Positions 1,875 to 57,485 of a stretch of DNA of 64,000 nt are shown in pieces. The notes under the pieces were generated by a model. That model was not told the origin of the DNA. It did no database searches and saw nothing but the letters and a program-made list of their open reading frames with translations. The first letter of the stretch is position 1, and every line of letters begins with the position of its first letter. The stretch comes from Odiellus spinosus (lineage: Eukaryota; Arthropoda; Arachnida; Opiliones; Phalangiidae). The stretch is from contig OY987237.1 in assembly GCA_963920705.1 (NCBI GenBank), positions 12,988,601 through 13,052,600 on the forward strand. Reading direction: 5' to 3'. The position numbers and the translations under genes are program-made.

Positions 1875-2211
1875 CAGAAGCCGATGAAACCCTCCTTTGA
1901 AGTCTATTACTCCCTGGTCTTGTTTACCCCTCTCTGTATGGGTTAGTTTCAAAAAGCGCGATTCGTACGCCTCCTAACGGTAGATGTTTTCGGAGCGGGA
2001 GTTCGTCCAGCGAATATCTCTAGCAGCCTCGGAGTTCGTCCAAAAACGTCGTCGTTTGTGGAGAGAGAGAATTTTCAATTTTCCGTAGACAGGGGGGTAT
2101 GAAGTACGACCCCTTCTAACTCGTAAAATTGTGAATTTTACCCATACAGAGAGGAGCGCTATATCGAACATTAGAGTAGTAGACTTCAAAGGAGGGTTTC
2201 ATCTACTTCTG
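1875..2211 (+). mobile_element. Family E non-autonomous DNA transposon, copy E1
   Basis: 337 bp starting CAGAAGCCGATGAAACCCTC and ending in its near-complement (CATCTACTTCTG), with terminal inverted repeats of about 39 bp. It is flanked by a 7-bp target duplication CTATCGG (1,868-1,874 and 2,212-2,218). No transposase is encoded. Short open frames inside it recur in every copy and are not genes. Confidence 0.92.
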
Positions 2212-2288
2212 CTATCGGGTATAATGTATAGTAATATCAAGTTTAATTAAAAGGTGGTCTAATTAATATATTTTATATAGAAAAATTA

Positions 2289-2301
2289 CCCCCCCCCCCC
2301 C
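2289..2301 (+). repeat. Poly-C run
   Basis: Thirteen C in a row followed by CGCGCCCCCC. A simple mononucleotide tract inside the intron. Confidence 0.9.
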
Positions 2302-2835
2302 GCGCCCCCCTGAGATACATTAAGGCCATCAAAAATTACCAAATAAATTTTTTCAAATAAAGTAAATTCTTATAAAATAAAAAGGTTTAATTTCGAGTGC
2401 CAAGCGATAAAAACAATTTAAAAAATCAAATTATTAGTGCACCATATTTATAATCTGAAATGGAATTAGAGGATTTCTGTTTTACATCTATCATGCAAAA
2501 ATAAAATTGAAGAATCAACGTTTCCATCAAGTCAAAAAAGGCTTCGTTAAAATTGCAACAACGATAAACTAATTGATTTAGACCGAAACTATATCGAAGT
2601 TTTTGCTTTAATTAATTACCCAGTCATTAAAATGTAATTTTAAAGAGAGAATGAAATGTTTAATTAAACAAATTAGTTTTTATCGACCTTTAACAGCTTA
2701 TGTCAAGTCTAGAATTCTTCGCGAATTTTGCAAAGCCAGGGTTTTATAACCTTGGAAAAGCTGAACCCAAAAGAGTTCGCCAGATTTTGAACTTAACGTG
2801 ATATAAACCTTCGATTTTATTCAAGTATTAATTGA

Positions 2836-3133
2836 CAGGGTTGTCATAGTTTTTTCATATTCAAATTCCCTGACCTTTTCCAATGATTTTCCCTGACCGT
2901 TTCAGCTAACACTACCCAATTTTTAACCTTTTCATATAATTGTGTTCGTCAAACTTTTTGCACGCGTATCTTTGTTCTAATCTATACAACTGGCACGGTC
3001 AGCTGAAAATATTTTCCGCAGAAAATTATTGTAATTTCCTAGCTTCTTGAAAGATCTTTAAATTCCCTGACTTTTCCCTGATATTTTAAAATATCTTAGA
3101 ATTCCCTGACTTTTCCTCACTTGTGGCAACCCT
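2836..3133 (+). mobile_element. Family L element with CAGGGTTG ends
   Basis: Left end CAGGGTTGTCATAG and right end CTTGTGGCAACCCT form an imperfect inverted repeat. The interior carries repeated TTCCCTGACCTTTTCC-like motifs. A clear target duplication is not visible. The ends look like those of hAT-type elements, but the superfamily is inferred only from the termini. Confidence 0.6.
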
Positions 3134-3376
3134 ACATTTAACTACCATTTTTTTAAATAATATTATTCGTTTTAAAATTCTAACCCTTGTTTTTTATTTG
3201 GTTAAATTAAATCTCTTCATTTCATCATACCTTTAAAATTAATTATTATTTCTGTTCATTTTAAATCAATTGCGTTAACCTTATTAGAGTCAATGATAAT
3301 AAATTCGATCAGAAATGCTCATTAATATAATGACAAAAATTTTATAAGTAGATATTAAATTGTAATTGCCTTTAAT

Positions 3377-3482
3377 CAGAAGCCAATGAAACCTGATTTG
3401 AAATTCATAATTCCCAGGACTCGTTCACACTTGTCTGATGAAGGTAAATTTCAAAAATCTGGATTTGATTCATCGGCTTCTG
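3377..3482 (+). mobile_element. Short degenerate E-like foldback (E12)
   Basis: CAGAAGCCAATGAAACCTGA at the left and TTTGATTCATCGGCTTCTG at the right frame only 106 bp. Flanks CTTTAAT and TTCTAAT are a decayed 7-bp duplication (5 of 7). It is probably an old internally deleted member of family E. Confidence 0.7.
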
Positions 3483-3718
3483 TTCTAATGGCAACGTTCA
3501 GCGAAGAGAGCCCCAAGATAATAAGTTATACTTAATCCTAATTAAGGTGATATAGTTTCGGTCTAATTTTAGTTTCATTATTATTTATATCCGCAGGGGT
3601 AACGCGTCAAAACAGTAAGATTTCTTAACACGAACATAAGAATTTAGTTCATTTATTCCCGAAAAGAATTCTTAGTAATTTGACGCGATTAAAAATCCCT
3701 CTGAAACAAAAAACGAAC

Positions 3719-3787
3719 CATTCTTTCTTTGACGATTTGCTCGATTTCGGAAGCTAGTTCAGCGGTGTTGGTACCACCTTCCTTTGG
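3719..3787 (-). CDS. trio: Trio-like RhoGEF, exon f: short helical linker
   Basis: A 69-bp phase 0/0 exon of 23 codons, beginning PKEGG and containing TAELASEIEQIVKERM. Human Trio has AAELVSAIEELVKSKM at the same place between the PPP block and DH2, so the match is strong despite the small size. The acceptor is TTTGCAG. The donor ATG|GTTCGT is weak. The segment is probably a short amphipathic helix of unknown partner. Confidence 0.88.
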
Positions 3788-4993
3788 CTGCAAATATGAA
3801 TAATGGCTCAAACTTCAAACACACACTACTCGAATTATTATGGCGTATTATAAAACTCCTATTCTTAACGTTTAGCACTTGATTTCCCGTTTCAAAAACA
3901 TTTATACCCTTTTTCAATATTATAAAAGTGAAGTATCAAGTTTGTTATTAAACTACGTGATCTACATTCGACTGGATACTGATAAGATTAAATAAAAAAA
4001 AAAAAAAAGGGGGTTAGAATGAACGCCGAAGAACGAATACTACTACAGATATTGAGTAAGGCTCGACATTTACAAGGATGACCGCGATAATATTCGATCT
4101 CGATTTTTATTACGTATAAAAGCCGACAGCCAATGATTAAGCGAATATTTCGCGGTTTAATTATAATCGAGGCAGATTTTTCTATTTTTTTTATTATACG
4201 TTATTAAGGAAACGTTTAATTCCAATCGTTATTTATGTAAATTAGTAAAATAGTACCCGAAGAATGATTGTTGTACTATAATAGTTTATACAACATTCAA
4301 ATTTTTGGAAATTTCGTTAAATGGAGAATGCAACTCGAGTGATTTTCGTTTAAATAGGCCTAATCCAACAGTAAGCAAAATTTACAAACAAATATTTAAC
4401 TAGAAATAAAACTTACCAGGGAAATAGGCTTAGCGGGATTCATGGAGATTCTGAATTTCTTCGCATTGAAGAGTCGGCGACCAATGAACAAAGCCCCCCC
4501 CCGGCGTTAAGGTGAGATCTACGTGGGACTTAGAATAACATTCGATTGGTAGCGAAGAGATTCAGAATCTACGTGATTATAGCTAAGCCTAATTTAAAAC
4601 TTATCAGGCAAATAGGCTTAGCTATAATCACGGAGATTCTGTATTTCTCCGCGTAGATGGGTCAGTGAGTAATCGAATTTTATTCTAAGTTTCACGGAGA
4701 TCTCGGCTTAACGAAAGGGCCTTCGTTCATTGGGGGCTGACTCTTCAATGGAAAGAAATTCAGGATGTCCATGAATACCGCTAAACCCATTTTGATGGTA
4801 AGTTTTAAATTTATTTCTTGTTGAATATTTGTTTGTAATTTTTTTTTTTTAATAATGGATTAGGCCTATTTAAACGATAAGGAATCGATTAAACAATCAC
4901 TTGTTTGATTGCATTCTCCCTTTAAAGGTATACTATACTTTGAAAACCAGCTATTTTCGTAAATTTAGTCTGTTAATCATAATTCAAACTCAC
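3788..4993 (-). other. Intron e-f
   Basis: 1.2-kb intron. The distal half is filled by palindromic element B1 (4,321-4,921). The remainder (3,788-4,320) is AT-rich with an A tract near 3,994-4,008; I see nothing else in it. Confidence 0.85.
4321..4921. mobile_element. Palindromic TTAA element B1 (rearranged, long)
   Basis: Flanked by TTAA at 4,317-4,320 and 4,922-4,925. Ends are ATGGAGAATGCAACTCGAGT and GATTGCATTCTCCC. It is longer than the usual ~430 bp because the centre holds a second pair of arms: AATAGGCTTAGC... occurs at 4,421 and again at 4,612. This suggests partial duplication or one B element inserted into another. Confidence 0.85.
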
Positions 4994-5272
4994 CCCTTTG
5001 TCCAGACTGTTTTCGGCTAGGGGTGTGGGAACTGCCGAAAAGGAGTGTTCTTGAATCTTCATGGGAGGCGGTAATTCAAGTTCCGATGTGTCTAATTCTT
5101 CTTCCGTCGTCGTGGTACAAACCGGTACACCTCCTGGAACCGAAGACGATGCTCCGATAGCCGTTGTCGACACCCCGTTTCCACCGTTCAAGTCCAAAGA
5201 CCGAGATTTCTGGGCCAATCGCGGTGTCTTACCACCGCCACCTACGACAGCACCGGAACTAGAGTTCGGTCT
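4994..5272 (-). CDS. trio: Trio-like RhoGEF, exon e: Ser/Gly linker with PPP block
   Basis: 279 bp, 93 codons, phase 0/0. The acceptor is a long T tract then AACAG, and the donor GGG|GTGAGT. It encodes RPNSSSGAVVGGGGKTPRL, then QKSRSLDLNGG, a Ser/Gly/Val run, TTTTEEELDTSELELPPPMK and IQEHSF. Human Trio has an acidic run followed by PLPPPMAIQQHS at the matching place, which anchors the assignment. The polyproline block could be an SH3-binding site, but no partner can be read from sequence. An open frame on the opposite strand is a shadow. A start codon within the exon is not needed, because the frame enters open from the acceptor. Confidence 0.93.
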
Positions 5273-5460
5273 CTGTTAAAAAAAAAAAAAAGGATATCCG
5301 GTTTAGAACCAAGAATAGAATACAAGCGGGATATTCATGTGCAGGACAAGGAACGAAAAAAGATAAGATAAATTATATGCATATCCGACAAAAAAAAAAA
5401 AAAAAAAATCTAATAATCTGAAAATTTCTGGATGAACTCGTAAAGGAGAGAATTTTCTTA

Positions 5461-5755
5461 AGCCTCGTTCACACTAGCATTTCTTAATCGATTTGAAACG
5501 GTAAAATCAAACCGATATTCAAATCGCCACGAATAGTTTTAAGAGTCAACTGTTCAAGCATTATCTTTATAAATCGATTTATTGTAGCTTTATCTATCGG
5601 TTGTTGAAACCGAATCGGTATGAAACTGGTTCCCGAAGCAGTTTCGAGAAATCTAATCAAATCGATTCGAGAAAAGACGGTTTCCTTTTCACACGACTCT
5701 AGCGAAACGTTTTGAAACGGTTTAAATCGATTCCTAGGCCTAGTATGAACGCAGC
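5461..5755 (+). mobile_element. Dispersed element H, copy 1
   Basis: About 295 bp from AGCCTCGTTCACACTAGCAT to TAGTATGAACGCAGCT. The ends are imperfect inverted repeats (consensus AGCYNCGNTCAYACTAG). The interior is rich in AATCGATT-like short palindromes. A related, more diverged block follows to about 5,973 and again at 54.6 kb. Confidence 0.75.
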
Positions 5756-6265
5756 TATATAAATTACAATGATTTTTTTAAAAAGAATTAAGCAACATTC
5801 ACATTGAACACTTTGAAACGGTTTTCCAACTGTTTCGAATATTAAAATAAATTTATTACGCGAATGACAAAATTTTTGGACAAATAACCTTTACAGATGA
5901 TCCCAAAATGTTCTAATTTGACCTTTACAAAACTTTTGTTTTAATTTAAAGTATCTAGTGTGAACCCGGCTTAAAGGATCCACGAATCCTTGGACTCGTG
6001 TCATTCCAAATATATGTTAGTTCGAAATATAAATATTTGCCCTTCAAAATTAATAAATTTAAATCTCAAAATTTTCAAGGGGCAATCGCAATTAAAACCG
6101 AGTACGATTAAAGAAAGAGCTGTAATCGCTATCAAATGTAATTTTGTAAAAACAATTGCACGAAACTAAGAGGAATTTAAGTATTTACAATAATTATTAT
6201 TTTTATTATGCCACATAAATAATTAATATAAAAAAGAGGCTAGTTATAATTTCTGTAAATTTATT

Positions 6266-6546
6266 CAGGTTCCATAAGAATATGGGAGGACCGCGATTCA
6301 ATAACCATCCTCCCAAACTTTGTAGCAAAAGTTCGTCCGCTTCGAATCGATTTTTCAAGTAAATCGCTCCTGCCATCTATTATTAACCCGCGCCACTAAC
6401 GACCTTGACATAATATTTTGGGTAATAAAAATGAAGCCGACCGAAAAAAGATCTAAGCGTACAAATGTTGGGAAAATTGCGGACGAACTTTTGTTACAAA
6501 GTTTGGGAGGATGGTACCAGAGGCTCCCATATTCTTATGGAACCTG
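6266..6546. mobile_element. Foldback/MITE with 23-bp inverted repeats
   Basis: CAGGTTCCATAAGAATATGG at the left is mirrored by CCATATTCTTATGGAACCTG at the right. A second inner pair (CATCCTCCCAAACTTTGTAG / CTTTGTTACAAAGTTTGGGA region) extends the stem. No clean target duplication is seen. There is only one copy in the window. Confidence 0.75.
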
Positions 6547-6936
6547 AATGGATTCTTGGTAATAGCTAATTATTATTCCGAAAAAGAATGAGCACTTTAA
6601 GCAAACCAGACTGTCTTGAAAAATAAAACTAAATTCAATTTTAAATTTACAACAGTAGGCTACGAATTGTAAGGAGAGATACAACAAGATTCTCGTCATA
6701 ACAAGGACTATAAAAACAAACAAATTCACTCTTTTTCAAGAAGTTCAAAATACTTTTAAGTCTTCGTCACGGGAACTAAAAATAATTTTTAACGCTACTA
6801 CTCAAGTGGTAAGAATACTGTTTTTATCCCTAAAATAATATCCGACTAAGTTCAAAGAAAGGAACGTGTACGAATAGATACTTTACAGCCTTAGAATGGC
6901 AAAAAGAATACCATATAGTTATTTATAACCCCAAAC

Positions 6937-7085
6937 AGAGCTCGGAATCGGATATCCATTATCTTCTGTTATTCGTATATTTTCAGTAAAATTGTTTGTA
7001 ACTAAAAATTGAAATTTGTATATTCGTATAATTGTTAGATGTATAAGATTTACCCGAAGATAAACATTTGGCGCTTTATCTACGA
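6937..7085 (+). repeat. Repeat family P, copy 3 (left end, cut by a tandem array)
   Basis: Starts CAGAGCTCGGAATCGGATATCC like the left end of the complete copy at 36.7 kb, and follows it to CTTTATCTACGA. There the 33-bp array begins, so the array arose inside, or replaced, the rest of the element. Confidence 0.7.
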
Positions 7086-9134: not shown

Positions 9135-9552
9135 CAGAGGTATATAATAACCCCCTTCGGGGGGAAGTATGAAAGGTAGGCAAAATCGACGAACAACAAG
9201 TGCCCGGCGTAAATCGTGGCGGATCGACACACCGCTTTACTCCCAAAAAATAGTTACACCATTTTGAACCTCACAAAATTTTCCCTACGCACACTTCCGG
9301 AACTTAGGAGCTGAAGTCAACCTTCGACTCCATTTTAACAGACAGCCTGACTCCTGAGACAGGAAGTTCTAAACACAAATCGAGCCGTCTTGTTTATACA
9401 AAGACCATTTACTAGAGTAGCGACATTGAGAAGTCCAGCGCGAGCTAGTGGCCTAGATAGTCAGCAGCGGGCTCTTGTTGTTCGTGATTTTTAGCATTGG
9501 TAGTATAGGGGCTTTCATACTTCCCCCCGAAGGGGGTTATTATATACCTCTG
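9135..9552 (-). mobile_element. Family C non-autonomous DNA transposon, copy C1
   Basis: 418 bp with ends CAGAGGTATATAATAACCCC and its complement, flanked by the 7-bp duplication TTAATAT (9,128-9,134 and 9,553-9,559). The terminal repeat includes CCCCCTTCGGGGGG, itself a small hairpin. The interior is comparatively GC-rich and non-coding. Orientation is opposite to C2 and C3. Confidence 0.93.
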
Positions 9553-19324: not shown

Positions 19325-19622
19325 CTCGGCACTATGGTCGCGTGATTTCGCTATTATAGAGCCTACAGTTGATTCTCGCGCGTGATAAGGTCGCTTTGGC
19401 GCGGTTTTTTTCGTAAAAGTACTTAACTTAAGTCAACTTAGTTTCGTATTAAAATTATCGTTAATTAACTCCCAGAAATTTTTATTTTGAAGTTTCTTTC
19501 TTCACACGTAAACCGGCAGAGGTAAAAAATTTTGAATATGACGTTTTAATAGTATAATAAAACTAAAAATATAATCCATAGTCATTCGAAAATAAATTAA
19601 AAAAAAATGTGACAACCTCACT
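19325..19622 (+). repeat. Dispersed repeat G, copy 2
   Basis: CACTATGGTCGCGTGATTTC, AAGGTCGCTTTGGCGCGG, CGTAAAAGTACTT and finally ACAACCTCACTTTAA. Same motif order as at 1.4 kb. Confidence 0.5.
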
Positions 19623-20039
19623 TTAATAAAAGCAATCAGCTTGTCATTGGGATTTAACAATATATTAGCTTGTCTGCTGAACTATAAACGTGGCCTTTAG
19701 AAAGACGAAAATAGGTCCTAAAGAGTCTTAGACTTGAGTGACTTAGAGGTTAGGTCTTTTTTAAAAGTATTCAGTATATAGAGTTGATTGTACCTCTGTA
19801 ATCCCGGAGATAGAATCGTTTAAAAAACAGGACTAGAGAACTTGATAACAAGAAGGAAAATTAAAAAAAAAAAAATTCAAAAAATTGCCTGATTTACGAC
19901 CATTTTTTATTTAGGCGAAAACCGACGTTTATATTTCAGTTATAATTTTGAAAGGAACATAATTTATCTTAAGAAAAACTCGTTTTACAAGGGGATTAAG
20001 AATACATTCCAAGAATGTAACGAAATATAAGCCCCGTTC

Positions 20040-21579: not shown

Positions 21580-21980
21580 CAGGGGTATATAATAACCCCC
21601 TTCGGGGGTAAGTATGAAAGCCCCTATACTACCAATGCTAAAAATCACGAACAACAAGAGCCCGCTGCTGACTATCTAGGCCACTAGCTCGCGCTGTACT
21701 TCTCAATGTCGCTACTCTAGTAAATGGTCTTTGTATAAACGAAACGGCTCGATTTGTGTTTAGAACTGGCTGTCTGTTAAAATGGAGTCAAAGGTTGACT
21801 TCAGCTCGCAAGTTCCGGAAGTGCGCGTAGGGAATATTTAGTAAGGTTCAAAATGGTGTAACTATTTTTTGGGAGTAAAGCGGTGTGTCGATCCGCCGCG
21901 ATTTACGCCGGGCACTCGTTGTTCGTCGATTTTGCCTACCTTTCATACTTCCCCCCGAAGGGGGTTATTATATACCTCTG
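21580..21980 (+). mobile_element. Family C transposon, copy C2
   Basis: 401 bp, starting CAGGGGTATATAATAACCCC and ending TTATATACCTCTG, with the 7-bp duplication GTATTAT on both sides (21,573-21,579; 21,981-21,987). Relative to C3 it lacks about 20 bp near the TTCCTGTCTCGGGAGTCAGG segment. Confidence 0.93.
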
Positions 21981-23107
21981 GTATTATTTATATTACAAAC
22001 GGGACATTAAATTGAAAGAGCGTGTTTGAATTTCGTTTACTTTTAGGCTCGATTTAGGCTTAGCATTTTTAAGAAAGGTCACCTGGTCTAAACGTCGCAT
22101 ATTTGCCGGAAGATAACCGAAATGAAATACATTTCACTCTCCCTTTAGTCAATTAAATATCACTCACTTTCGATAAATGGTTGGGGCATAATTTTAAAAT
22201 AGGCTTAGCAACAACGAAATTGACCTATATTTCACATCCCCTTTAGTCAAAAATCTATTAAAATCAAGATTAAACTAAAATTATATTTAAATATTAACCC
22301 TTAGTTTAAACAACGTCTAATATAAAATTAATAAAAAAAATTAGATTTAACAATTTCGAGACTAAATGTAAATATTGAAATGGGGTTTAAATCGAGAATA
22401 AATTAAATTTAAATATAATTAAAAACATAATTAAAATAATTAAGAAATACCTTGGTTGACGTAGAATTGAGATTTCACTCTAGCCATTACGTAACACGAC
22501 CTGAACACATGATTTTTAAATATTAAGTAATCTTCAAACCAAGATATTTCTTCACTATACTAGCGCTAGTTTAGTCATTATATGTACTATTATTTCTAAA
22601 TGAACTCGAAACGCACCTTCACTGTCAGACCGACTTCGCGATAATGACTCGAAATATTTTTATCTACACTTTATTTTTTATCTTCTTTATTTTTCTTTTT
22701 TTGTTTGAAACGTTTCGTAGGTTGATAGGTGATTTTTTCAGTCCTTAACAATTTGACGTAATCTATCTTAGCCGTATATATTTTAATATATTGAACGTGT
22801 TGAAAAATAACCCTAGAATGAGTCAAAACAGCGCGACTTCACATAAGGCTAAAATGATATTATGGTATATGTAAAAAGACCATGACATAAATATTCAAAT
22901 TATAATTTTCATGATCATAGTATTCGTATCGTTGTAATATAAAATTATATTGGGTTTCTATACGTAACTAGCTATTACAGCTCAAAAGAGTATTACAAAT
23001 TATAATAATTATTGGTGACGTGGTCTAATCATTTACGTAATATGATAAAATTACTGTAATTTCTCTTACATTGTTCCACTTTAAACATCTCGAAAAAAGC
23101 TATTTTA

Positions 23108-23822
23108 TTGTAAGGCTTAATCGACGTTTGAAATTAGCCTTAATCAACGTTCGAAATTAGGCTTAATCGACTTTCGAAATTAGGCTTAATAAAGGTTTGA
23201 AATTAGGATTTATAGAGGTTTGAAATTAGGATTTATAGAGGTTTGAAATTAGGATTTATAGAGGTTTGAAATTAAGCTTAATTGAGGTTTGAAATTAAGC
23301 TTAATTCAGGTTTGAAATTAGGCTTAATCCAGGTTTGAAACTAGGCTTAATCCAGGTTTGAAATTACGCTTAATCCAGGTTTGAAATTAGGCTTAACAGA
23401 GGTTTGAAATTAGGCTTAATCCAGGTTTGAAATTAGGCTTAATCCAGGTTCGAAATTAGGCTTAATCCAGGTTCGAAATTAGGCTTAATCCAGGTTCGAA
23501 ATTAGGCTTAATCGAGGTTCGAAATTAGGCTTAATCGAGGTTTGAAATTAGGCTTAATCGAGGTTTGAAATTAGGCTTAATCGAGGTTCGAAATTAGGCT
23601 TATTCGAGGTTCGAAATTAGGCTTATTCGAGGTTCGAAATTAGGCTTATTCGAGGTTTGAAATTAGGCTTAACAGAGGTTTGAAATTAGGCTTAACAGAG
23701 GTTTGAAATTAGGGTTAATCCAGGTTTGAAATTAGGCTTAATCCAGGTTCGAAATTAGGCTTAATCCAGGTTCGAAATTAGGCTTAATCCAGGTTCGAAA
23801 TTAGGCTTAATCGAGATTTGAA
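23108..23822 (+). repeat. 23-bp satellite, orientation 1
   Basis: About 31 units of TTTGAAATTAGGCTTAATCG plus AGG or CAGG-type variants (ATCGAGG, ATCCAGG, AACAGAGG, ATAGAGG). The plus strand reads AAATTAGGCTTAAT; the array at 58.9 kb reads the exact reverse complement. Variant subtypes occur in blocks, a sign of local unit duplication. Confidence 0.95.
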
Positions 23823-24443
23823 AAAAGTACCCGTACACGCACGGTTTCTCGTTACAGATACTAGACCTATAACTCATCTCTGTGAGCCACTCCGAGTCCT
23901 TGTTAATAGCACAATGCTTGTATACGTGCCAATTCGAGTTTGAATCCTACAGGCTACCTAGCTGACAAAGAACTACTAAGGTAGAGAGATTTATGAGCGA
24001 AAGGGGAAATACTAGACAACTCGATAAACATTCTAGTTTTAAAATTTCCTCACGTGGCAAGATTATTTTGGGCAAATTAACGAGCAAAAGCGAACGAGTG
24101 AAGGGCCAACTTGGCGAATACTTTGAAATTTTACACGAAAAAGTCCGGGTTCAAATTGAAAACACAAGAGTAACTCGTCTTTTTTATTTTACTAGATTTA
24201 TTAAACATACGAAACCATGATACTAAAATTATTAATTTTAAAGAAGGCATATTAGACTCGGATAACAAGATATTTTTGTTCAATTTGGGCCGTTAAAATA
24301 CGCTTAAAAACTAGCCAAAGGTTTCGCGATCATACAGTTAATTATCTAAGTCGGGAACGACACTAGCTAACCCTAAATCGAAGTGAATATGTGACAAAGT
24401 GAGAGCGAAAGTGACAAAGTGAATTTGAAAGCGAATGTAACAA

Positions 24444-24746
24444 CAAGAAGGATAAGACAAGGAGAGGAAAAGTGGGAACGGCGCGGTTCCTACTGCGTCG
24501 GCCTAAACTCCCACTCTGGGAGAACGGGGGACAGACGGGAGTAGAGATGCTTCGTGGTAAATTGTTGTCACGTGGGTAAAACGGATCCTTTATGAGACGC
24601 GTAGTAGCCGACGACGCTAGCGACCACGTGACAACAGTTTACCTCGAGACTTTTCTATCCCCCCTTTCCATCCGAGTGGGAGGTTGGCTCTTCTCTCTTT
24701 AACTCAACGCAGCCCCACTTTTCCTCTCCTTGTCTGATCCTTCTTG
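24444..24746. mobile_element. Family A foldback transposon, copy A1
   Basis: 303 bp, ends CAAGAAGGATAAGACAAGGA and TCCTTGTCTGATCCTTCTTG, 7-bp duplication GTAACAA (24,437-24,443; 24,747-24,753). An inner pair TTGTTGTCACGTGG / CCACGTGACAACA makes the whole unit a long hairpin. It is markedly GC-richer than its surroundings and non-coding. Confidence 0.93.
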
Positions 24747-26427: not shown

Positions 26428-27079
26428 AGGGAGACTGCAACTTAATAACAAGTGATTTTTTGTCGATTCCTTATCGTTTAAATGGGTCTAATCCAACAGT
26501 AAACAAAATACAAAGAAATATTAACTAGAAATAATATTAAAACTTACTCTGAAAATTTATTATTTAATATTTGCAGAGGTATATAATAACCCCCTTCGGG
26601 GGGAAGTATGAAAGCCCCTATACTACCAATGCTAAAAATCACGAACAACGAGAGCCCGCTGCTGACTATCTAGGCCACTAGCTCGCGCTGGACTTCTCAA
26701 TGTCGCTACTCTAGTAAATGGTCTTTGTATAAACAAGACGGCTCGATTTGTGTTTAGAACTTCCTGTCTCGGGAGTCAGGCTGTCTGTTAAAATGGAGTC
26801 GAAGGTTGACTTCAGCTCGCGAGTTCCGGAAGTGCGCGTAGGGAAAATTTAGTGAGGTTCAAAATGGTGTAACTATTTTTTGGGAGTAAAGCGGTGTGTC
26901 GATCCGCCGCGATTTACGCCGGGCACTTGTTGTTCGTCGATTTCGCCTACCTTTCATACTTCCCCCCGAAGGGGGTTATTATATACCTCTGATATTTGTA
27001 AATTTTTCATCGGTGGATTAGGCCTATTTAAACGATAAAGAATCGATAAAAAAACAACTTGTTAGGTTGCCTTCTCCCT
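26428..27079. mobile_element. TTAA element B4, interrupted by C3
   Basis: Left end AGGGAGACTGCAACTTAATA after TTAA (26,424-26,427); right end GTTGCCTTCTCCCT, where the duplication has decayed to TTGA. Transposon C3 sits inside it, so B4 is older. Confidence 0.85.
26574..26991 (+). mobile_element. Family C transposon, copy C3 (nested in B4)
   Basis: 418 bp, CAGAGGTATATAATAACCCC ... TATACCTCTG, 7-bp duplication ATATTTG (26,567-26,573; 26,992-26,998). Nearly identical to C1 and C2 over its length. Confidence 0.94.
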
Positions 27080-29774: not shown

Positions 29775-30250
29775 TTAAGTACTTTTACGAAAAAGACAGC
29801 ACGAAAGCGACCTGAACTGTAGGTTCTATCAGAAGCCGATGAAACCCTCCTTTGAAGTCTATTACTCCCTGGTCTTGTTTACCCCTCTCTGTATGGGTTA
29901 GTTTCAAAAAGCGCGATTCGTACGCCTCCTAACGGTTTATATTTTCGGAGCGGGAGTTCGTCCAGCGAATATCTCTAGCAGCCTCGGAGTTCGTCAAAAA
30001 AACGTCGTCGTTTGTGGCGAGAGAGAATTTCCAATTTTTCGTAGACAGGGGGTATGAAGTAGGACCCCTTCGATCTCGTAAAATTGGGAATTTTACCCAT
30101 ACAGAGAGGAGCGCTATATGGAACATTAGAGTAGTAGACTTCAAAGGAGGGTTTCATCTACTTCTGGTTCTATACAATAGCAAAATCACGTGACCATAGT
30201 GATGACGTTTTATTGCGTGGAATTTTTATTACAAAATATAAGATTTTACT
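29775..30250 (+). repeat. Dispersed repeat G, copy 3, split by E2
   Basis: AAGTACTTTTACGAAAAAGAC and AAGCGACCTGAACTG on one side of E2, and AAATCACGTGACCATAGTGATG on the other, together match the motif set of G in reverse order. E2 inserted into it. Confidence 0.55.
29830..30166 (+). mobile_element. Family E transposon, copy E2
   Basis: Clean copy with 7-bp duplication GTTCTAT (29,823-29,829; 30,167-30,173). Like E1 and E5 its right end reads CATCTACTTCTG, where most copies have CATCGGCTTCTG, which may define a subfamily. Confidence 0.93.
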
Positions 30251-34358: not shown

Positions 34359-35032
34359 AGGGAGAATGGAATCTAAAAACAATTTTTTTTTTATCGATTC
34401 CTTATCGTTTAAATAGGGCCAGAAGCCGATGAAACCCTCCTTTGAAGTCTACTACTCTAATGTTCCATATAGCGCTCCACTCTGTATGGGTAAAATTCAC
34501 AATTTTACGAGTTAAAAGGGGTCCTACTTCATCCCCCCTGTTTACGGAAAATTGGAAATTCTCTCTCTCCGCAAACGATGACGTTTTTTGGACGAACTCC
34601 AAGGCTGCTAGAGATATTCGCTCGACGAAATCCCGCTCCGAAAATATCTACCGTTAGGAGGCGTACGAATCGCGCTTTTTGAGAATAACCCATACAGAGA
34701 GGGGTAGACAAGACCAGGGAGTAATAGACTTCAAAGGAGGGTTTCATCGGCTTCTGATAGGGCTAATCCAACGGTAAACAAAATTTAAAAACAAATATTT
34801 AACTAGAAATAAATTTAAAACTTACCATCAAAATAGGCTTAACTGGTTTTATGAACTTCACCTGAACTCCCCGTATAAGGACTAGCTACCAATGACATTG
34901 ATTAATGGCTCTGATATAGAGAATGCAGGATTTCCATGATCAATGTCATTGGTTGCTATAGTCCTTAGTTCAGGATAATCCAGCTAAGCCTATTTTGATG
35001 GTAAGTTTTAAATTTATTTGGATTTTAATTAA
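34359..35032. mobile_element. TTAA element B6, split by E3 (right end lost)
   Basis: AGGGAGAATGGAATCTAAAA begins the left arm. It is broken at ATAGGGC by E3 and resumes CTAATCCAACGGTAAAC. The right arm reaches GATGGTAAGTTTTAAATTTA and then fades, so the usual GCATTCTCCCT end is missing. Confidence 0.8.
34420..34756 (-). mobile_element. Family E transposon, copy E3 (nested in B6)
   Basis: 7-bp duplication ATAGGGC (34,413-34,419; 34,757-34,763). Inverted relative to E1. Removing it restores the AAATAGGGCTAATCC text of the B arm. Confidence 0.94.
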
Positions 35033-37756: not shown

Positions 37757-38390
37757 AATGGATTAGTTGCTATCATAAAAGAGGAGGAGTTTAGGGAATG
37801 TCGTCATCAGCTACGTCATAGTTCGCAAAGCTCATAGAGCCAGAAGCCGATGAAACCCTCCTTTGAAGTCTATTACTCCCTGGTCTTGTCTACCCCTCTC
37901 TGTATGGGTTATTCTCAAAAGGCGCGATTCGTACGCCTCCTAACGGTAGATGTTTTCGCAGCGGGTGTTCGTCGAGCGAATATCTCTAGCTGCCTTAGCG
38001 TTCGTCCAAAAACGTCGTCGTTTGTGGAGAGAGAGAATTTCCAATTTTCCGTAGACAGGGGGATGAAGTAGGACCCCTTCTAACTCGTAAAATTGGGAAT
38101 TTTCTCCATACATAGAGGAGCGCTATATGGAACATTGGAGTAGTAGACTTCAAAGGAGGGTTTCATCGGCTTCTGATAGAGCTCGTGAGCGCCGATCATT
38201 TCTTAAGCTTATTTTTTTCTATATCCATGTCAGCTCTCAACCTCGGGTCTCTCACGAGTAACTTCTGAACCCTCTGACCCCTAGCGTTTTATGTATAACC
38301 TTAACGCCACGTGATTTCGTGACGTAGTTAGCAACGTTCGAACAAGATGTGGCACCCGCAACCTCTTTTATAATATCAATTATTGGCGAG
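37757..38390 (-). mobile_element. Dispersed element M, copy 2, split by E4
   Basis: TTGCTATCATAAAAGAGGAG opens it and CAACCTCTTTTATAATATCA closes it, reverse to copy 1 at 27.6 kb. E4 interrupts it at ATAGAGC. The shared segments include CTTAACGCCACGTGATTTCG. Confidence 0.7.
37841..38175 (+). mobile_element. Family E transposon, copy E4 (nested in M)
   Basis: 7-bp duplication ATAGAGC (37,834-37,840; 38,176-38,182). Typical ends and about 335 bp. Confidence 0.94.
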
Positions 38391-38812: not shown

Positions 38813-39149
38813 CAGAAGCCGATGAAATCCTCCTTTGAAGTCTATTACTCCCTGGTCTTGTCTACCCCTCTCTGTATGGGTTAGTTTCAAAAAGCGCGAT
38901 TCGTACGCCTCCTAACGGTAGATATTTTCTGAGCGGGAGTTCGTCGAGCGAATATCTCTAGCAGCCTCGGAGTTCGTCAAAAAACGTCGTCGTTTGTGGA
39001 GAGAGAGAATTTCCAATTTTCCGTAGACAGGGGGGTATGAAGTAGGACCCCTCCGATCTCGTAAAATTGTGAATTTTACCCATACAGAGAGGAGCGCTAT
39101 ATCGAACATTAGAGTAGTAGACTTCAAAGGAGGGTTTCATCTACTTCTG
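38813..39149 (+). mobile_element. Family E transposon, copy E5
   Basis: Flanks CCATAAC and GCATAAC agree at 6 of 7 bases. The right end is of the CATCTACTTCTG type. Confidence 0.9.
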
Positions 39150-39703: not shown

Positions 39704-40041
39704 CAGAAGCCGATGAAACCCTCCTTTGAAGTCTACTTCTCCAATGTTCCATATAGCGCTCCTCTCTGTATGGGTAAAATTCACAATTTTACGAGTTAGA
39801 AGGGGTCCTACTTCATCCCCCCCTGTCTACGGAAAATTGGAAATTCTCTCTCTCCACAAACGACGACGTTTTATTGACGAACTCCGAGGCTGCTAGAGAT
39901 ATTCGCTGGACGAACTCCCGCTCCGAAAATATCTACCGTTAGGAGGCGTACGAATCGCGCTTTTTGAAACTAACCCATACAGAGAGGGGTAGACAAGACC
40001 AGGGAGTAATAGACTTCAAAGGAGGGTTTCATCGGCTTCTG
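39704..40041 (-). mobile_element. Family E transposon, copy E6 (no target duplication)
   Basis: Both ends are intact, but the flanks ATTTTAC and CTAGAAT do not match. Inverted relative to E5, 555 bp away. Recombination between copies would explain the mismatch. Confidence 0.88.
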
Positions 40042-42655: not shown

Positions 42656-42993
42656 CAGAAGCCGATGAAACCCTCCTTTGAAGTCTATTACTCCCGGGTC
42701 TTGTCTACCCCTCTCTGTATGGGTTATTCTCAAAAGGCGCGATTCGTACGCCTCCTAACGGTAGATGGTTTCGGAGCGGGAGTTCGTCGAGCGAATATCT
42801 CTAGCAGCCTTGGAGTTCGTCCAAAAAACGTCGTCGTTTGTGGAGAGAGAGAATTTCCAATTTTCCGTAGACAGGGGGGGATGAAGTAGGACCCCTCCTA
42901 ACTCGTAAAATTGGGGATTTTACCCATACAGAGAGGAGCGCTATATGGAACATTGGAGTAGTAGACTTCAAAGGAGGGTTTCATCGGCTTCTG
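42656..42993 (+). mobile_element. Family E transposon, copy E7
   Basis: Complete ends. The flanks ATAATAT and GTATATG do not form a clear duplication. Very close in sequence to E8 and E11. Confidence 0.88.
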
Positions 42994-46556: not shown

Positions 46557-46892
46557 CAGAAGCCGATGAAACCCTCCTTTGAAGTCTATTACTCCCGGGT
46601 CTTGTCTACCCCTCTCTGTATGGGTTATTCTCAAAAGGCACGATTCGTACGCCTCCTAACGGTAGATGTTTTCGGAGCGGGAGTTCGTCGAGCGAATATC
46701 TCTAGCAGCCTTGGAGTTCGTCCAAAAACGTCGTCGTTTGTGGAGAGAGAGAATTTCCAATTTTCCGTAGACAGGGGGGATGAAGTAGGACCCCTCCTAA
46801 CTCGTAAAATTGTGAATTTTACCCATACAGAGAGGAGCGCTATATGGAACATTGGAGTAGTAGACTTCAAAGGAGGGTTTCATCGGCTTCTG
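46557..46892 (+). mobile_element. Family E transposon, copy E8
   Basis: Flanks TTTAAGG and TTTATGG agree at 6 of 7. It lies 350 bp upstream of the SH3-exon acceptor, the nearest E copy to any exon apart from E1. Confidence 0.92.
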
Positions 46893-48469: not shown

Positions 48470-48807
48470 CAGAAGCCGGTGAAACCCTCTTTTGAAGTCT
48501 ACTACTCTAATGTTCCATATAGCGCTCCTCTCTGTGTGGGTAAAATTCACAATTTTACGAGATCGGAGGGGTCCTATTTCATACCCCCTGTCTACGGAAA
48601 ATTGGAAATTCTCTCTCTCCACAAACGACGACGTTTTTTTTGACGAACTCCAAGGCTGCAAGAGATATTCGCTGGACGAACTCCCGCTCCGAAAATATCT
48701 ACCGTTAGAAGGCGTACGAATCGCGTTTATAGAAACGAACCCATACAGAGAGGGGTAGACAAGACCCGGGAGTAATAGACTTCAAAGGAGGGTTTCATCG
48801 GCTTCTG
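48470..48807 (-). mobile_element. Family E transposon, copy E9
   Basis: 7-bp duplication GTAATAT (48,463-48,469; 48,808-48,814). Inverted relative to E8. Confidence 0.93.
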
Positions 48808-51101: not shown

Positions 51102-51104
<3 letters not shown>

Positions 51105-51555: not shown

Positions 51556-51600
51556 ACCTAAGTCGTAATTATGGTATTCCTATAATAATTAAGCATTGCA

Positions 51601-51893
51601 TTAATTAAACCTCGCCAGGCGATAATTAAACCTCGCCAGGCGATAATTAAACCTCGCCAGGCGATAATTAAACCCCGCCAGGCGATAATTAAACCCCGCC
51701 AGGCGATAATTAAACCTCGCCAGGCGATAATTAAACCTCGCCAGGCGATAATTAAACCTCGCCAGGCGATAATTAAACCTCGCCAGGCGATAATTAAACC
51801 TCGCCAGGCGATAATTAAACCTAGTCAGGCGATAATTAAACCTCGTCAGGCGATAATTAAACCTCGCCAGGCGATAATTAAACGTAACCAAGT
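51601..51893 (+). repeat. 21-bp minisatellite
   Basis: About fourteen units of AATTAAACCTCGCCAGGCGAT. CGCC-A-GGCG in each unit is a small self-complementary stem. Only 45 bp separate it from the 20-bp array, yet the units are unrelated. A 21-bp period gives an open frame that is an artefact. Confidence 0.96.
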
Positions 51894-52705
51894 TTGAATT
51901 AACAAAATATTTTAAGTGTTGATAGTATAAAGTAAAAAATAACGTAAAATAGAACTTAAAAAAAGTTCAAACCATACAGTCTGTAAGAAAACTATAGAAA
52001 ATGATTTATAAGGAAGTAATTTGATCTAAGGTAAGCTTTCCTCCCGCACTTTTTGGACCCGAGCAGTGAGCACTACTGTATTTCCTCTCCTGGGAGCTAA
52101 AACTTTGGAGAGTTCATCAAATATTATATTTGCCTATAGGGAGGAAACCCAAGATAAAATAACCTTCCCATGATAGGAAGAGCTTCCGTACAAGGACCTA
52201 ACGCTCTCTCGAGAGACTATTCAACATCTCAAGGAAAGAGATTTTCGCCAAAAGGTCAAATAAAGGCTTCCTTAATAAATATAAGAAATACGCGGTGTGA
52301 AGAATTTTAGCTATAAAACACTAGAACCATAAAAAAGGTACCATCCCGAGTAAAACCTGACCTATGACCTTTAAGTAGAATTTATTAAAACAGAATTAAG
52401 ACTAGTTTCTCAAGTCTTACGACTACTTGTAGCCACAAGAACTCCTTAGATAGAATACTTAATTTTTTCGTACAATATCCAAAACTTTTGGCCTCGTTCG
52501 CAAAATACGTTTGAATTAAACTATGATAAGACTGTCTTTATGCTTATAATTAACAGAATTAATTCCAATGAATTAAATCTGTTTATTACAAGAGGGATAG
52601 AGCAAAGAGCCAAGGGGGGAAGAAAGATTGACGTCATGGAACCCCCTTACTGGGGGCGAATAATATAACTCCTTCACTAATTCCGAGGTAAGGAATATTA
52701 ACTTT

Positions 52706-52802
52706 TTATTGGTGGATTAAGCCTATTTAAACGATGAAGAAATCGAAAAAAAAAAGAAAAGAAAAATCACTTGTTAAGTTGTTATTAGGTTGCATTTTCC
52801 CT
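52706..52802 (+). mobile_element. Right end of a B element
   Basis: GGATTAAGCCTATTTAAACG ... TTAGGTTGCATTTTCCCT then TTAA. The rest of the element is absent. Confidence 0.7.
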
Positions 52803-53479
52803 TTAATTATCCCCCAAATTCTATCTAAACAAGAAATAAAATTGAATTAAAGATCCTTTAGAGTCAAAATACGAACATCAAGAGAGAGGTTTGGGTTTAT
52901 TTTTCGCTTTTAGAACGTAATTCAGATAAGATTTTTAAACCCGGTCATGTCGTCATCATTTTTTCCCTCGGAACTTAATTCTACAGTTAGCTATCAATTA
53001 AATATGACCATAACTTAAAATACAGTGTTTATTCACGTTATAAATTAAGCTGAAAGTTTGCTAAGCCTAATTATAATCACGTTAAGGTTTAATTTAATTA
53101 TTTTTGACCGCTATAAAATGATTCGAATGTCCTGGGAATTTGGGTCAAATGTCTGGTCAAACCCACCTTCACTCTTACCACGCGTGTCTGAAGTTTTATA
53201 CATATATTGATCCGGTTTAATTTCCGAGGTTCTATCTTGGGTGATGGGAGTCATTAGTTTAGATTGTACGTGGGTTTAACTCGCCAGTCTTAAGGAAATA
53301 TAATTGGTTGTTTAATTGGTAGTCTGAAGGGTGTGCGTGGGAAAGGTAGGGCTAAAACAATAAACCGTATTTTTCGATCTCTTATTTTGCGTTCATACAA
53401 ATTAAAGAAGAGTGTGTGTAGGGTTCTACTTCTTCGCTAATTGGAGGCGTATTTCTAATTAGATGGGTAGCGATCTTAA

Positions 53480-54068
53480 AGGGAGAATGCAACCTAACAA
53501 CGAGTGATTTTTTTTATCGATTCCTTATCGTTTAAATAGGCTTAATTAAACAGTTAAAAAAATTACAAACAAAAATTTATATTAAACTAGAAATAATAGG
53601 CTTATATGGATTCATGGAGATAACCTGAACTCCCCGTATAAGGACTAGCAAGAAGGATCAGATAAGGAGAGGAAAAGTGGGAACGGCGCGGCTCCTACTG
53701 CGTCGGCCTAAACTCCCACTCTGGGAGAACGGGGGACAGACGGGGGTAGAGATGCTTCGTGGTAAATTGTTGTCACGTGGGTAAAACGAATCCTTTATGA
53801 GACGCGCTAGCTAGCGACCACGTGACAACAGTTTACCTCGAGAATTTCCTATCCCCCTTTCCACCCGAGTGGGAGGTTGGCTCTTCTCTCTCTAACTCAA
53901 CGCAGCCCCACTTTTCCTCTCCTTATCTGATCCTTCTTGGGACTAGCGACCAATGACATCGATCGATGGCTCTTACATAGGAAATGTAGGATCTCCATGA
54001 TCAATGTCGTTGGTTGCGTGGAGTTCAGGCCTCTTTTGATGGCAAGTTTTAAATTTATTTCTAGTTAA
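53480..54068. mobile_element. TTAA element B8, split by A3 (right end lost)
   Basis: AGGGAGAATGCAACCTAACA after TTAA (53,476-53,479). The arm reaches CCCCGTATAAGGACTAG, is broken by A3, and resumes CGACCAATGACATCG. The right arm stops at AATTTATTTCTAGTT. Its centre resembles B6. Confidence 0.85.
53649..53939. mobile_element. Family A foldback transposon, copy A3 (nested in B8)
   Basis: 291 bp, CAAGAAGGATCAGATAAGGA ... CTGATCCTTCTTG, 7-bp duplication GGACTAG (53,642-53,648; 53,940-53,946). Nearly identical to A2. Confidence 0.95.
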
Positions 54069-54967
54069 CGCGTGACGTCTCTTTACAGGTTTTTCTTTCC
54101 ATTTCAATTCGTGGCTCAGTTGGCGTGGCCCAATCTCGAACCGTTCTTAAAACATTCACCAAGTTTTCCAAAACATTTATACTAAAAATGCTCAGTATTG
54201 CTTAATTATTAGTTAAAAGTTGATTATAATTCGACAGAATTAAGCATAAACAATGATTACGTATTACTCCTTGAAGATTGATGGTACATCATTTGTTTAA
54301 AAATAAGAATTCTGGGTGTGTCTGAAACGTGGACCTAGATTGATTATGTCTAACTAAGGTATATCATAAAAGCGATCACCCGTAAAAGGAGAAGCTACAA
54401 TTAATTGCAGATTAAATCGATTAAAAGTAGATATTATTTCCAAAGTCTAGTAACCTTTATAAAGCATCCCTTAGCTAACGAATAATTTAATTTAAAAATC
54501 AAACGTTAGGATTCATTGTCACTTTAAAAAAAGTATTACAACTTCCACCTTGGCGTTGGTAGGGTTTTATTTCAAGGCCCGTACAATCTTAATATTCAGT
54601 AAACTTTCTTTGAATCGAAACAGCTAGACACTTTGATATGGTATTCAAACTGTGTCGAATATTCAAATGAATTTATTACGCGAATAATTTAATTTTTTGA
54701 CGAAGAACCTCTTCAGTTGACCCCAAAAATGTTCCAATTTGATCTTTGCAAGTTTGCAAAAGGCTTAACGGTTTAAAAGTCTAATGTGAACGCTTATGTT
54801 TTGATGGTAACGGATTGGCGCGCGTCATTAGAAAAACATATACTAGTCGGATTGGCGTGTCGATATACATTAACAACACGAGCCTCGCTTTCAAAACACA
54901 CACATAACATAAATGACAACTAAAAAATATTAAAGGGCGAGTCTCATAGTTAAATTTAAAATGATCC

Positions 54968-55520
54968 TAAAGGAAAACTTGGAGTTAAAATTGGAACAGC
55001 TTTTGAAATTATTTTCGGAATCAGTACCATCAGAAGTAGATGAAACCCTCCTTTGAAGTCTACTACTCTAATGTTCGATATTGCGCTCCTCTCTGTATGG
55101 GTAAAATTCCCAATTTTACGAGATCGGAGGGGTCCTACTTCGTACCCCCCTGTCTACGGAAAATTGGAAATTCTCTCTCTCCACAAACGACGACGTTTTT
55201 TTTGACGAACTCCAAGGCTGCTAGAGATATTCGCTCGACGAACTCACGCTACGAAAATATCTACCGTTAGGTGGCGTACGAATCGCGCTTTTTGAAACTA
55301 ACCCATACAGAGAGGGGTAGACAAGCCCATGGAGTAATAGACTTCAAAGGAGGGTTTCATCGGCTTCTGGTACCATGCCAAAGGCATCAAACGTTGGCCT
55401 ATCCTTTTTAATGTTAGGAAATTACAAGCGCTGTTAAACAGTTAAAGGCCTGAAATAATATGATTGGTCCGAATTTAAAATTATTATCAGGTGATTTAGG
55501 TGTATATATTTAAAAAATGT
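54968..55520. mobile_element. TTAA-type element F, copy 2, split by E10
   Basis: AGGAAAACTTGGAGTTAAAA ... TTTTCGGAATCA lies left of E10. GAAATAATATGATTGGTCCG near 55,452 matches the interior of F at 60.5 kb. The right end is not clear. Confidence 0.6.
55031..55369 (-). mobile_element. Family E transposon, copy E10
   Basis: 7-bp duplication GTACCAT (55,024-55,030; 55,370-55,376). The left end is of the CAGAAGTAGATG type, the same subtype as the right ends of E1, E2 and E5 seen in reverse. Confidence 0.94.
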
Positions 55521-55979
55521 TTAAATTATTATTTCCATATATTGAGGTTTTCCCCTTACTAGTAGAAACACGCTTTTTTTTTTTCATAAGGAAAACATAC
55601 TTAGTATATAAGCTACATATTTAACGCCCCAATCAAAACACATCGTCGGAATATATGAAAAGGATAGGAATTAGAACTGGGTGCCAGTCGTTCATATCTG
55701 AATGCCATCTTGGCGCCCGCCTCCGCGTATTTCTCCTTCCCGTCACCTTATTTCGTTAACATCTCCACTCGAGATCATAGTTATAAAATGAACTATTAAC
55801 CAACAGTCGCTATATCATTATGACAAGGACGCCGGCTTTACAATAATAAAAGTACAAATACAAATTTTGTCGCTATGGAAACTAAAAAATGCTTTACGAT
55901 TCATTATCCTCGACCTTAGGATTTCCTCATTCAAAAATTAGTCTATTTTTCTTTTGACTTTTCGACCCGATTAAATTTC

Positions 55980-56440
55980 ACGACTATTACTTGACCCTTA
56001 TTTGACCAAAAATATCTAAATATTCCTTGTTTTTCACTCAACCCTTTTGCCTTATTATCATTTTTTCATGACTTATACTTGACCCTTTGACCGCAATTTC
56101 CAAATTCTACGGTTTTTCAATTGATAATTTGACCCCATTATTTTCCATGACTAATACTTGACCATATATGCCCTTAATTTCCAAATTCATTTGTTTTAAC
56201 TTTGACCTTTTGACCAATTATCAACTTCCATTACTAATACTTGACCATTTGACCGCCTTATCAAATTACCCATTCTTGGATCCCAATTTAAATATTACTT
56301 GACCTTTTGACCTCAAAATCAAATCACTTGACCTTTTGACCCTATATAAAAATCTCCCGACAATTCCCTTCGACTTCTGTCCTCATTATCAAATCTAGAG
56401 ACGTTTCAATTGACTATTTCACCAGGTTTTCAGCGAAATA
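55980..56440 (+). repeat. Degenerate TTGACC array
   Basis: Irregular repeats of ACTTGACCTTTTGACC and ATCAAATTNC over about 450 bp. Resembles the CCCTGACC arrays but lacks the CCC, so relationship is uncertain. Confidence 0.6.
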
Positions 56441-56712
56441 CACGTTTCTTTGGCTCTATTAAAAATACTGATATCTTAAACAATAGAGCGTTACAGAGAT
56501 GCGAGTTTGAACATCGATGCCAAGTATTTGGTTGACAAGGCTCCAAGATTACAAGCATTCAAAGCCCAATTCTCTCACCACTTCCACGTTTTGTGAAGGG
56601 AAAAAGGTTTAAAGTGGACAAAAAACATCTTAACGATGTTATGGTCATTTGTTTTTATACGGAAATGTTTTTTTTTTTATTATTATTATTTTCGATCGGT
56701 CATAAAAAGAGT

Positions 56713-56928
56713 CTATTTTTCTACTTGGATGTTCCCTAAATACAAGTCCTCGGGCATGGCGCCATTATACCCGAACAAGTATCTGTAAGACTCGAATCTC
56801 TGAAGAATTCCCATCGGTGTTTTTATAATGTTTTCAGAGCACGATGTTCCCACTGCCCCACATCCTCTAGGGCGTCCCATCTGGACTCTTAAATCTTTAC
56901 GAGACCCGAATTTAAGGTTCCTTTCCGC
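56713..56928 (-). pseudogene. Unrecognised 71-codon open segment with A-rich tail
   Basis: A minus-strand frame opens after a TAG at 56,929-56,931 and runs to TAG at 56,713-56,715. It includes FGSRKDLRVQMGRPRGCG, then ILQRFESYRYLFGYNGAMPE and DLYLGNIQVEK. Composition is more coding-like than the surroundings. About 28 bp after the stop the minus strand reads (AAT)n then a dozen A, like the 3' tail of a retroposed transcript. I do not recognise the protein. Alternatives are a 5'-truncated retrocopy, the last fragment of a retrotransposon, or an alternative 3' exon of the host gene (the preceding GAAGTTAG is a poor acceptor). A chance frame cannot be excluded. Confidence 0.35.
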
Positions 56929-57148
56929 CTAACTTCCGCAGCTCTATCTCTCCAGAGTTTGTACCGAGTTGCATTCTATGACAGTAGAAAAGTCGTTTTT
57001 TTTTAAACGATGGGTTAGGTCTTTTTAACCACGATGTAATACGAATTTGGATATTAAAAAGATTCGAACCATAATTACGCTCCATGAATTATTTCTTAAA
57101 CATTTTTTAATTAATTTTAAATAGACTTGAGAAACATTTGGGTCAAAC

Positions 57149-57485
57149 CAGAAGCCGATGAAACCCTCCTTTGAAGTCTATTACTCCCGGGTCTTGTCTA
57201 CCCCTCTCTGTATGGGTTATTCTCAAAGGGCGCGATACGTACGCCTCCTAACGGTAGATGTTTTCGGAGCGAGAGCTCGTCGAGCGAATATCTCTAGCAG
57301 CCTTGGAGTTCGTCCAAAAAACGTCGTCGTTTGTGGAGAGAGAGAATTTCCAATTTTCCGTAGACAGGGGGTATGAAGTAGGACCCCTTTTAACTCGTAA
57401 AATTGGGAATTTTACCCATACTGAGAGGAGCGCTATATGGAACATTGGAGTAGTAGACTTCAAAGGAGGGTTTCATCGGCTTCTG
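57149..57485 (+). mobile_element. Family E transposon, copy E11
   Basis: Perfect 7-bp duplication GTCAAAC (57,142-57,148; 57,486-57,492). Confidence 0.94.

Follow-up and report, generated by a model that had tools for sequence, protein, structure and literature searches.

Introduction

Several described transposons of the P superfamily share features with three families of short elements, A, C and E, which we analyzed in a 64-kb stretch of the Odiellus spinosus genome (C15:12988601-13052600, in a genome of 443 Mb; this whole stretch is called the window). Galileo of Drosophila makes target-site duplications (TSDs) of 7 bp, with a few 8-bp cases, and their consensus is GTAGTAC, GTATTAC or GTANTAC (PMC2775673; PMC4168063). 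The elements in the window are like Galileo in both duplication length and target. Galileo derivatives consist almost entirely of terminal repeat, and in this respect they resemble the miniature inverted-repeat transposable elements (MITEs) studied here; in D. mojavensis, nearly complete copies have a mean length of 5.2 kb and copies with two terminal inverted repeats (TIRs) measure 1.7-2.2 kb, with long terminal repeats (PMC3573991). In contrast to these longer copies, A, C and E elements are 280-418 bp long and have repeats of 33-41 bp. The likeness to Galileo described here is one of TSD and target. Another P-superfamily element of Drosophila, 1360 (Hoppel), also has a 7-bp TSD. Its target motif is of the same general form (PMC4168063).

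P-superfamily MITEs (P-MITEs) have been described in Anopheles gambiae, where they were attributed to P elements that coexist in the same genome; their TSDs are 8 bp and their copy numbers 5-310 or 44-571 (PMC1562414), compared with 7 bp and 20,794 E termini here. The Drosophila P element and zebrafish Pdre2, both of which encode a THAP transposase, have CA...TG ends and terminal and subterminal inverted repeats, as do the elements in this study (PMC7776569; PMC10983969; PMC9682801); in P, the TIRs are 31 bp long and the internal repeats 11 bp (PMC7776569). However, the TSD of P and Pdre2 is 8 bp, and a CATAGA-ended family of O. spinosus (loci L095-L098, see below) matches them more closely than A, C and E do.

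In this study, we present evidence that A, C and E are probably non-autonomous MITEs mobilized by P-element-superfamily (THAP9-like) transposases of the 7-bp kind seen in Galileo; we place the probability of this reading at about 0.74. The movers would be several related P-type enzymes rather than one. Elements of this kind are already known from Galileo and the P-MITEs; the present genome stands out for how abundant E is, for how many 7-bp families it contains and for the occurrence of 7-bp and 8-bp P families together. No description of families A, C and E was recognized in the literature searched, which comprised open-licence papers.

Results

Duplication length in the window and in the genome

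The copies of the three families in the window are as follows.

24444..24746, + strand: A1, MITE of family A, ends CAAGAAGG; 303 bp, TSD GTAACAA
41835..42114, + strand: A2, MITE of family A; 280 bp, TSD GTTGAAT
53649..53939, + strand: A3, MITE of family A; 291 bp, TSD GGACTAG; 33-bp perfect TIR, 30-nt (80%) subterminal inverted repeat; empty-site relatives ungapped
9135..9552, - strand: C1, MITE of family C, ends CAGAGGTA; 418 bp, TSD TTAATAT
21580..21980, + strand: C2, MITE of family C, left end CAGGGGTA; 401 bp, TSD GTATTAT
26574..26991, + strand: C3, MITE of family C; 418 bp, TSD ATATTTG; 41-bp perfect TIR, 18-nt (89%) subterminal inverted repeat; empty-site relatives gapped only
1875..2211, + strand: E copy; 337 bp, TSD CTATCGG
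29830..30166, + strand: E copy; TSD GTTCTAT
34420..34756, - strand: E copy; TSD ATAGGGC; inside an interspersed repeat, with unoccupied repeat copies across the site (28 ungapped, 12 gapped)
37841..38175, + strand: E copy; TSD ATAGAGC; empty-site relatives ungapped
38813..39149, + strand: E copy; duplication 6/7
39704..40041, - strand: E copy; no duplication
42656..42993, + strand: E copy; no duplication
46557..46892, + strand: E copy; duplication 6/7
48470..48807, - strand: E copy; TSD GTAATAT
55031..55369, - strand: E copy; TSD GTACCAT
57149..57485, + strand: E copy; TSD GTCAAAC; 39-bp (97%) TIR, 15-nt (93%) subterminal inverted repeat
3377..3482, unstranded: old E-like remnant; 106 bp, without exact TSD

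The initial annotation had counted exact 7-bp duplications at all three A copies, all three C copies and seven of the eleven full-length E copies, with two further E copies matching at 6 of 7 bases, and all of these counts were reproduced. The remaining two E copies, at 39704 and 42656, were without duplication (2/7 matching in each). At the nucleotide frequencies of the window, chance would produce an exact 7-bp match at a rate of about 1.2e-4 per copy. Two features lay outside the earlier counts: the old E-like remnant, and an end pair at 19517-19798 that has only the first 8 bases of C and whose flanks match at 3/7, or at 6/8.

Copies were then taken from the rest of the genome: 30 of 40 scored for E (484 first-look candidates), 30 of 40 for A (517) and 20 of 40 for C (1245), the C loci being chosen by rank with the window's own copy and two slightly short matches left out. 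These fetched copies were the best-scoring ones, so that young copies are favored; median pairwise identity of the copies examined was 99.7% for A and 98.8% for C and E. An exact 7-bp duplication was found in 27/30 E copies including one from the window (26/29 new copies), and in 27/30 A copies; in each of the two families, two further copies matched at 6/7 and one had no duplication. Among C copies the figure was 15/20, and the other five comprised one exact 8-bp duplication (L089), one at 7/8 (L081), one at 6/7 (L075) and two poor matches (5/7 and 4/7). When distinct copies from the window and the fetched loci were pooled, exact 7-bp duplications were present in 30/33 A, 18/23 C and 33/40 E. 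Genome copies that mostly showed 8-bp or variable duplications would have spoken against the earlier proposal of one transposase group for A, C and E; instead, the duplications were mostly 7 bp (A 27/30, E 26/29, C 15/20). The 7-bp duplication class is real and widespread in this genome. In addition, the two C copies with an 8-bp duplication, one exact and one at 7/8, parallel the occasional 8-bp cases of Galileo and in this way favor a P-type assignment.

Insertion was also assessed by joining the flanks of each site with the 7 bp counted once and comparing the product with fetched DNA elsewhere. This comparison covered 76 sites (17 window copies, 29 E loci and 30 A loci); the 20 fetched C loci were too short, and C was represented by its three window sites only. 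A relative spanning the site was found for 20 of the 76 sites, and for 15 of them (8 A, 7 E, 0 C) at least one relative was ungapped at the junction. Eight of these 15 also had gapped relatives, and five further sites had gapped relatives only.

Terminal anatomy, abundance and further families

Anatomy was analyzed in one copy each of E, A and C, which had TIRs of 39, 33 and 41 bp and subterminal inverted repeats of 15, 30 and 18 nt, respectively. The combination of CA...TG ends with subterminal inverted repeats was present in all of these copies. In 28 end-to-end comparisons that also took in other families described below, the lowest shuffle p values, uncorrected, were 0.01 for E and C, 0.03 for X1 and X2, and 0.002 for X2 and a CGG-ended family.

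A 16-bp E terminus with two degenerate positions occurred 10,362 times in forward and 10,432 times in reverse orientation, or 20,794 times in the genome, compared with 0 for the control. With two ends per copy, this corresponds to on the order of 10,000 E copies.

An unguided scan for duplicated end pairs in the fetched DNA, which was mostly retrieved for A and E and is biased accordingly, listed exact duplications only. CA...TG pairs had 7-bp duplications in 108 cases, 8-bp in 8, 6-bp in 3 and 5-bp in 2. In another scan of the fetched DNA, exact 7-bp duplications numbered 95 at CA ends and 2 at all other end dinucleotides together. The unguided scan also revealed additional MITE families with 7-bp duplications and termini of their own, at least three in number and represented by two copies each: X1 (CAAGAATAGATTCAAC), X2 (CAAGAATCCATTCAGG) and X3 (CAGAAATAGATGAACC). 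These additional termini suggest that several related transposases are involved. By eye, the motif CARRARNNVAT was common to the ends of E, X1, X2 and X3, and C and A fit it loosely. Two other candidates were set aside: X4 (822 bp, L060) proved to be an A element surrounded by a different repeat, and a copy at L066 (X5) was not counted as a 7-bp family owing to its hAT-like look. One of the new families is also represented in the window:

6263..6558, - strand: X2 copy (fourth 7-bp family, ends CAAGAATCC); one terminus is absent here, and the 7-bp TSDs are exact in two copies outside the window (L028 and L046)

Target-site preference

In 81 exact sites with both strands pooled, T occupied position 2 of the duplication (hence A position 6) in 79%; T was also the third base beyond the duplication in 69%. 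Among the symmetrised sites of A, C and E, 70-89% had T at position 2; such both-strand profiles are palindromic by construction. The C profile was the sharpest, with T in 89% at position 2 and A in 75% at position 3, that is [G/A]TA-N-TA[C/T]. Its consensus, [G/A]TAWTA[C/T], agrees with the GTANTAC target, and the profiles of A and E are weaker yet alike. On single sites, T at position 2 and A at position 6 occurred together in 14/30 A, 14/18 C and 21/33 E, whereas in shuffles the mean counts were 2.4, 2.9 and 4.3, and the highest counts 8, 9 and 11, for A, C and E, respectively. Moreover, the profiles of A, C, E and a coding P family of this genome (7 sites) predicted one another's sites in all 12 directions, and 0 of 1000 composition-keeping shuffles did as well.

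Such cross-prediction bears on the possibility that the three families come from separate superfamilies and acquired the 7-bp stagger and the CA...TG ends by convergence. We regard this as improbable. Past the first bases the terminal repeats of the three families are indeed unlike one another, save for the weak match between E and C (shuffle p 0.01, uncorrected for 28 comparisons), and C shows 8-bp cases as well; however, target profiles are predictive across the families, and exact 7-bp duplications are almost confined to CA ends (95 versus 2 others, in DNA mostly fetched for A and E).

The initial annotation had also named Dada-type elements among those known to come near 7 bp. Dada duplications are 6-7 bp, a range that covers the length observed. 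However, Dada targets multicopy small RNA genes (PMC8869645), whereas the sites here are AT-rich and some lie within other repeats, and a Dada origin appears very remote.

P-type transposase families coded in this genome

P-type transposase domains were abundant, in keeping with a P-type assignment of the MITEs: 150 matches to PF21787 (P-type RNase H) were scored of 386 candidates, and PF12017 gave 68 matches. One group, with an 801-aa frame, belongs to a family with CGG...CCG ends, for which 951 bases were read at the 5' side of L099 and 521 at that of L100. The frame of the copy read starts with a THAP domain (PF05485, E 1.9e-13). The 304 aligned element bases of L099 and L100 were identical, and the two mismatches in the 311-base alignment both fell in the 7-bp flank. 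Without mismatch, the 20-bp end CGGTGCCTCCGAGATCCTTC formed seven facing pairs genome-wide, which delimit elements of 3768-3777 bp (four), 2996 bp (two) and 12,993 bp (one, presumably with an insertion); five more single places similar to CGGTGCCTCCGAGATCCTTC were found at 2-3 mismatches, a number equal to that of the reversed-pattern control. All seven elements contained a PF21787 match, in open frames of 798-801 aa in four and with two internal stops in three.

Inspection of all 14 ends of this family, 26 bases per end, revealed exact 7-bp duplications in 7/7 elements (TTTGAAG, ATTATAC, GTCAATC, ATACAGA, GTTTTAC twice, and ATTAAAC). Thus, a P-type family of O. spinosus makes 7-bp duplications at targets similar to those of A, C and E. 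Because this family combines a THAP domain and a P-type RNase H with a 7-bp stagger and similar targets in the same genome, it supports a P-type home for A, C and E. Since it ends CGG...CCG, it is a cousin of these families and not their master. Its unlike ends further imply that duplication length marks a group wider than one enzyme. Among the element types brought forward by the initial annotation to account for 7 bp, the P type therefore fits best, with a P-type family coded elsewhere in the genome and 7 bp in 7/7 elements.

A second, multi-copy P element of 2.5 kb (L095-L098) has CATAGA...TCTATG ends and, by eye, 8-bp duplications in 4/4 copies (GCTCCTAC, GTTTTAAA, ATTTCAGC and ACTTTAAC); THAP and PF21787 pieces are present in the L095 copy. 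It was rejected as the master of A, C and E on account of these ends and of the 8-bp TSD in 4/4. The presence of a 7-bp CGG family and an 8-bp CATAGA family in one genome shows that stagger length differs between P families. At L095:2595-5093, the 8-bp-duplicating P element is nested in a 7-bp-duplicating A element.

With regard to genomic distribution, many of the P-type and hAT transposase matches listed cluster, by eye, in C1 (3-10 Mb), C2 (29-32 Mb), C45, C33, C118 and C224. Unlike them, the fetched A and E copies are dispersed over large contigs.

Search for coding partners of A, C and E

Longer elements were sought with exclusion patterns that keep the terminal repeat and exclude the MITE interior, and which, from base composition, are estimated to pass about half of real partners. 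The scans returned 59 places for A, 65 for E and 57 for C. By eye, no two of these places faced each other within 20 kb, and none adjoined any of the P-type matches listed; the members of one facing E pair were 24.3 kb apart (C2:3623332 and 3647644). The initial annotation had placed the transposase gene elsewhere in the genome, and longer transposase-coding elements with A, C or E termini did not appear in the three scans, each of which passes about half; this negative evidence is weak.

Occurrences of a guessed pattern, CAGAAGCC, formed pairs spaced by about 4.7-4.9 kb in several contigs, which had the look of a long form of E. These pairs proved to lie inside giant palindromes unrelated to E. 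The palindromes (L009-L014; C1, C4, C5 three times, and C7) are near-perfect, with 4.9-5.1-kb stretches whose ends are inverted copies more than 99% identical to the limits of the DNA fetched. They form two subfamilies about 85% alike and carry frames of 465-484 aa that are interrupted by the ends of the fetched DNA; the one frame tested, from the L009 palindrome, had no Pfam match. In addition, one variant of the C terminus was the same in three contigs, about 13 kb from the contig end (C2:34476091, C5:24919249 and C13:13479), as if it belonged to a subtelomeric repeat.

Discussion

Weighing the P-type assignment

The main rival to a P-type origin, which we consider unlikely, would make A, C and E MITEs of the hAT superfamily, mobilized by an atypical hAT transposase whose cuts are staggered by 7 bp. 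The terminal consensus of hAT elements is YARNG; the ends of C (CAGAG) match it, and those of A (CAAGA) and E (CAGAA) fail to do so. The 8-bp duplication of hAT elements is not characteristic of A, C and E, with 2 of the 20 fetched C copies fitting 8 bp. hAT-looking MITEs of this genome (CAGGGACG and CAGGGGCG) made 8 bp in the five copies listed by the exact-duplication scan, which are MITE copies only. However, a single hAT-looking MITE at L066:2498-2785 (ends CAGGCTGGGAAATAAG) has the 7-bp duplication CGCTGAC, though the similar CAGGGACG family makes 8, a case that favors the rival. Matches to the hAT dimerisation domain are abundant (150 scored of 220 candidates), which also counts in favor of the rival; none of the hAT domains was linked to A, C or E ends. 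The P-type family, with 7 bp in 7/7, counts against it. A hAT-looking MITE with 8-bp duplication is also present in the window:

62024-62199: hAT-looking MITE, ends CAGAGACG/CAGGGACG, duplication CTTGTAAG; the duplication is likewise 8 bp in relatives at L045, L046 and L071

A P-type origin of A, C and E has to be weighed against several observations, of which the abundance of hAT domains is one. The three exclusion-pattern scans, each estimated to catch about half of such elements, recovered no coding or long element bearing the ends of A, C or E. The P-type family with a 7-bp duplication ends in CGG, not CA, and the CA-ended P family makes 8 bp, so that no single coding family combines CA...TG ends with 7 bp. 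The MITE termini resembled the end of the Drosophila P element only weakly, A being the closest (shuffle p 0.04, uncorrected for eight tests). Base-pairing symmetry of single sites was above the shuffle mean and never above the shuffle maximum in any family (1.03, 1.67 and 1.24 paired positions of 3 per site for A, C and E; shuffle maxima 1.17, 1.67 and 1.36). Beyond the duplication, the third base is mostly T here, whereas the printed flanks read AANGT in Galileo and ANAGT in both P and 1360 (PMC4168063). Finally, target preference alone does not set hAT aside, since T at position 2 and A at position 7 were both present at 4/5 hAT-like 8-bp sites.

The P-type reading nevertheless accounts best for the shared duplication length. 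According to it, a transposase made elsewhere would bind the terminal and subterminal inverted repeats of the MITE and excise it. An AT-rich target near [G/A]TANTA[C/T] would be captured, and the ends would be joined 7 bp apart, with gap repair leaving the duplication. The earlier proposal that one transposase group moves A, C and E is supported at the level of the superfamily only, given the same 7-bp length and cross-predicting targets.

Apart from transposable elements, the window contains two 23-bp tandem arrays in opposite orientation (22975-23941 and 58791-59480) that share one unit family (about 86% alike), and other tandem arrays elsewhere in the window have units of 20-46 bp.

Implications

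The evidence is evenly poised on a broader view, in which this genome holds a P-superfamily radiation split into 7-bp and 8-bp lineages. It would include at least six 7-bp MITE families (A, C, E and X1-X3), with E at about 10,000 copies, and the CGG-ended THAP transposon, and in it stagger, end recognition and target would vary separately. If E is P-type, its expansion would represent a P-MITE burst far above the highest copy number given for Anopheles, 571 (PMC1562414).

The length of the stagger is often taken as fixed for each superfamily and used to classify non-coding elements. Our data call for caution in this respect, as a common 7-bp duplication points to a lineage of enzymes and not to one enzyme. 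Given that the 7-bp and 8-bp P-type families of O. spinosus both have transposase-bearing copies, the spacing of the two joining events in the P transpososome is now open to protein comparison.

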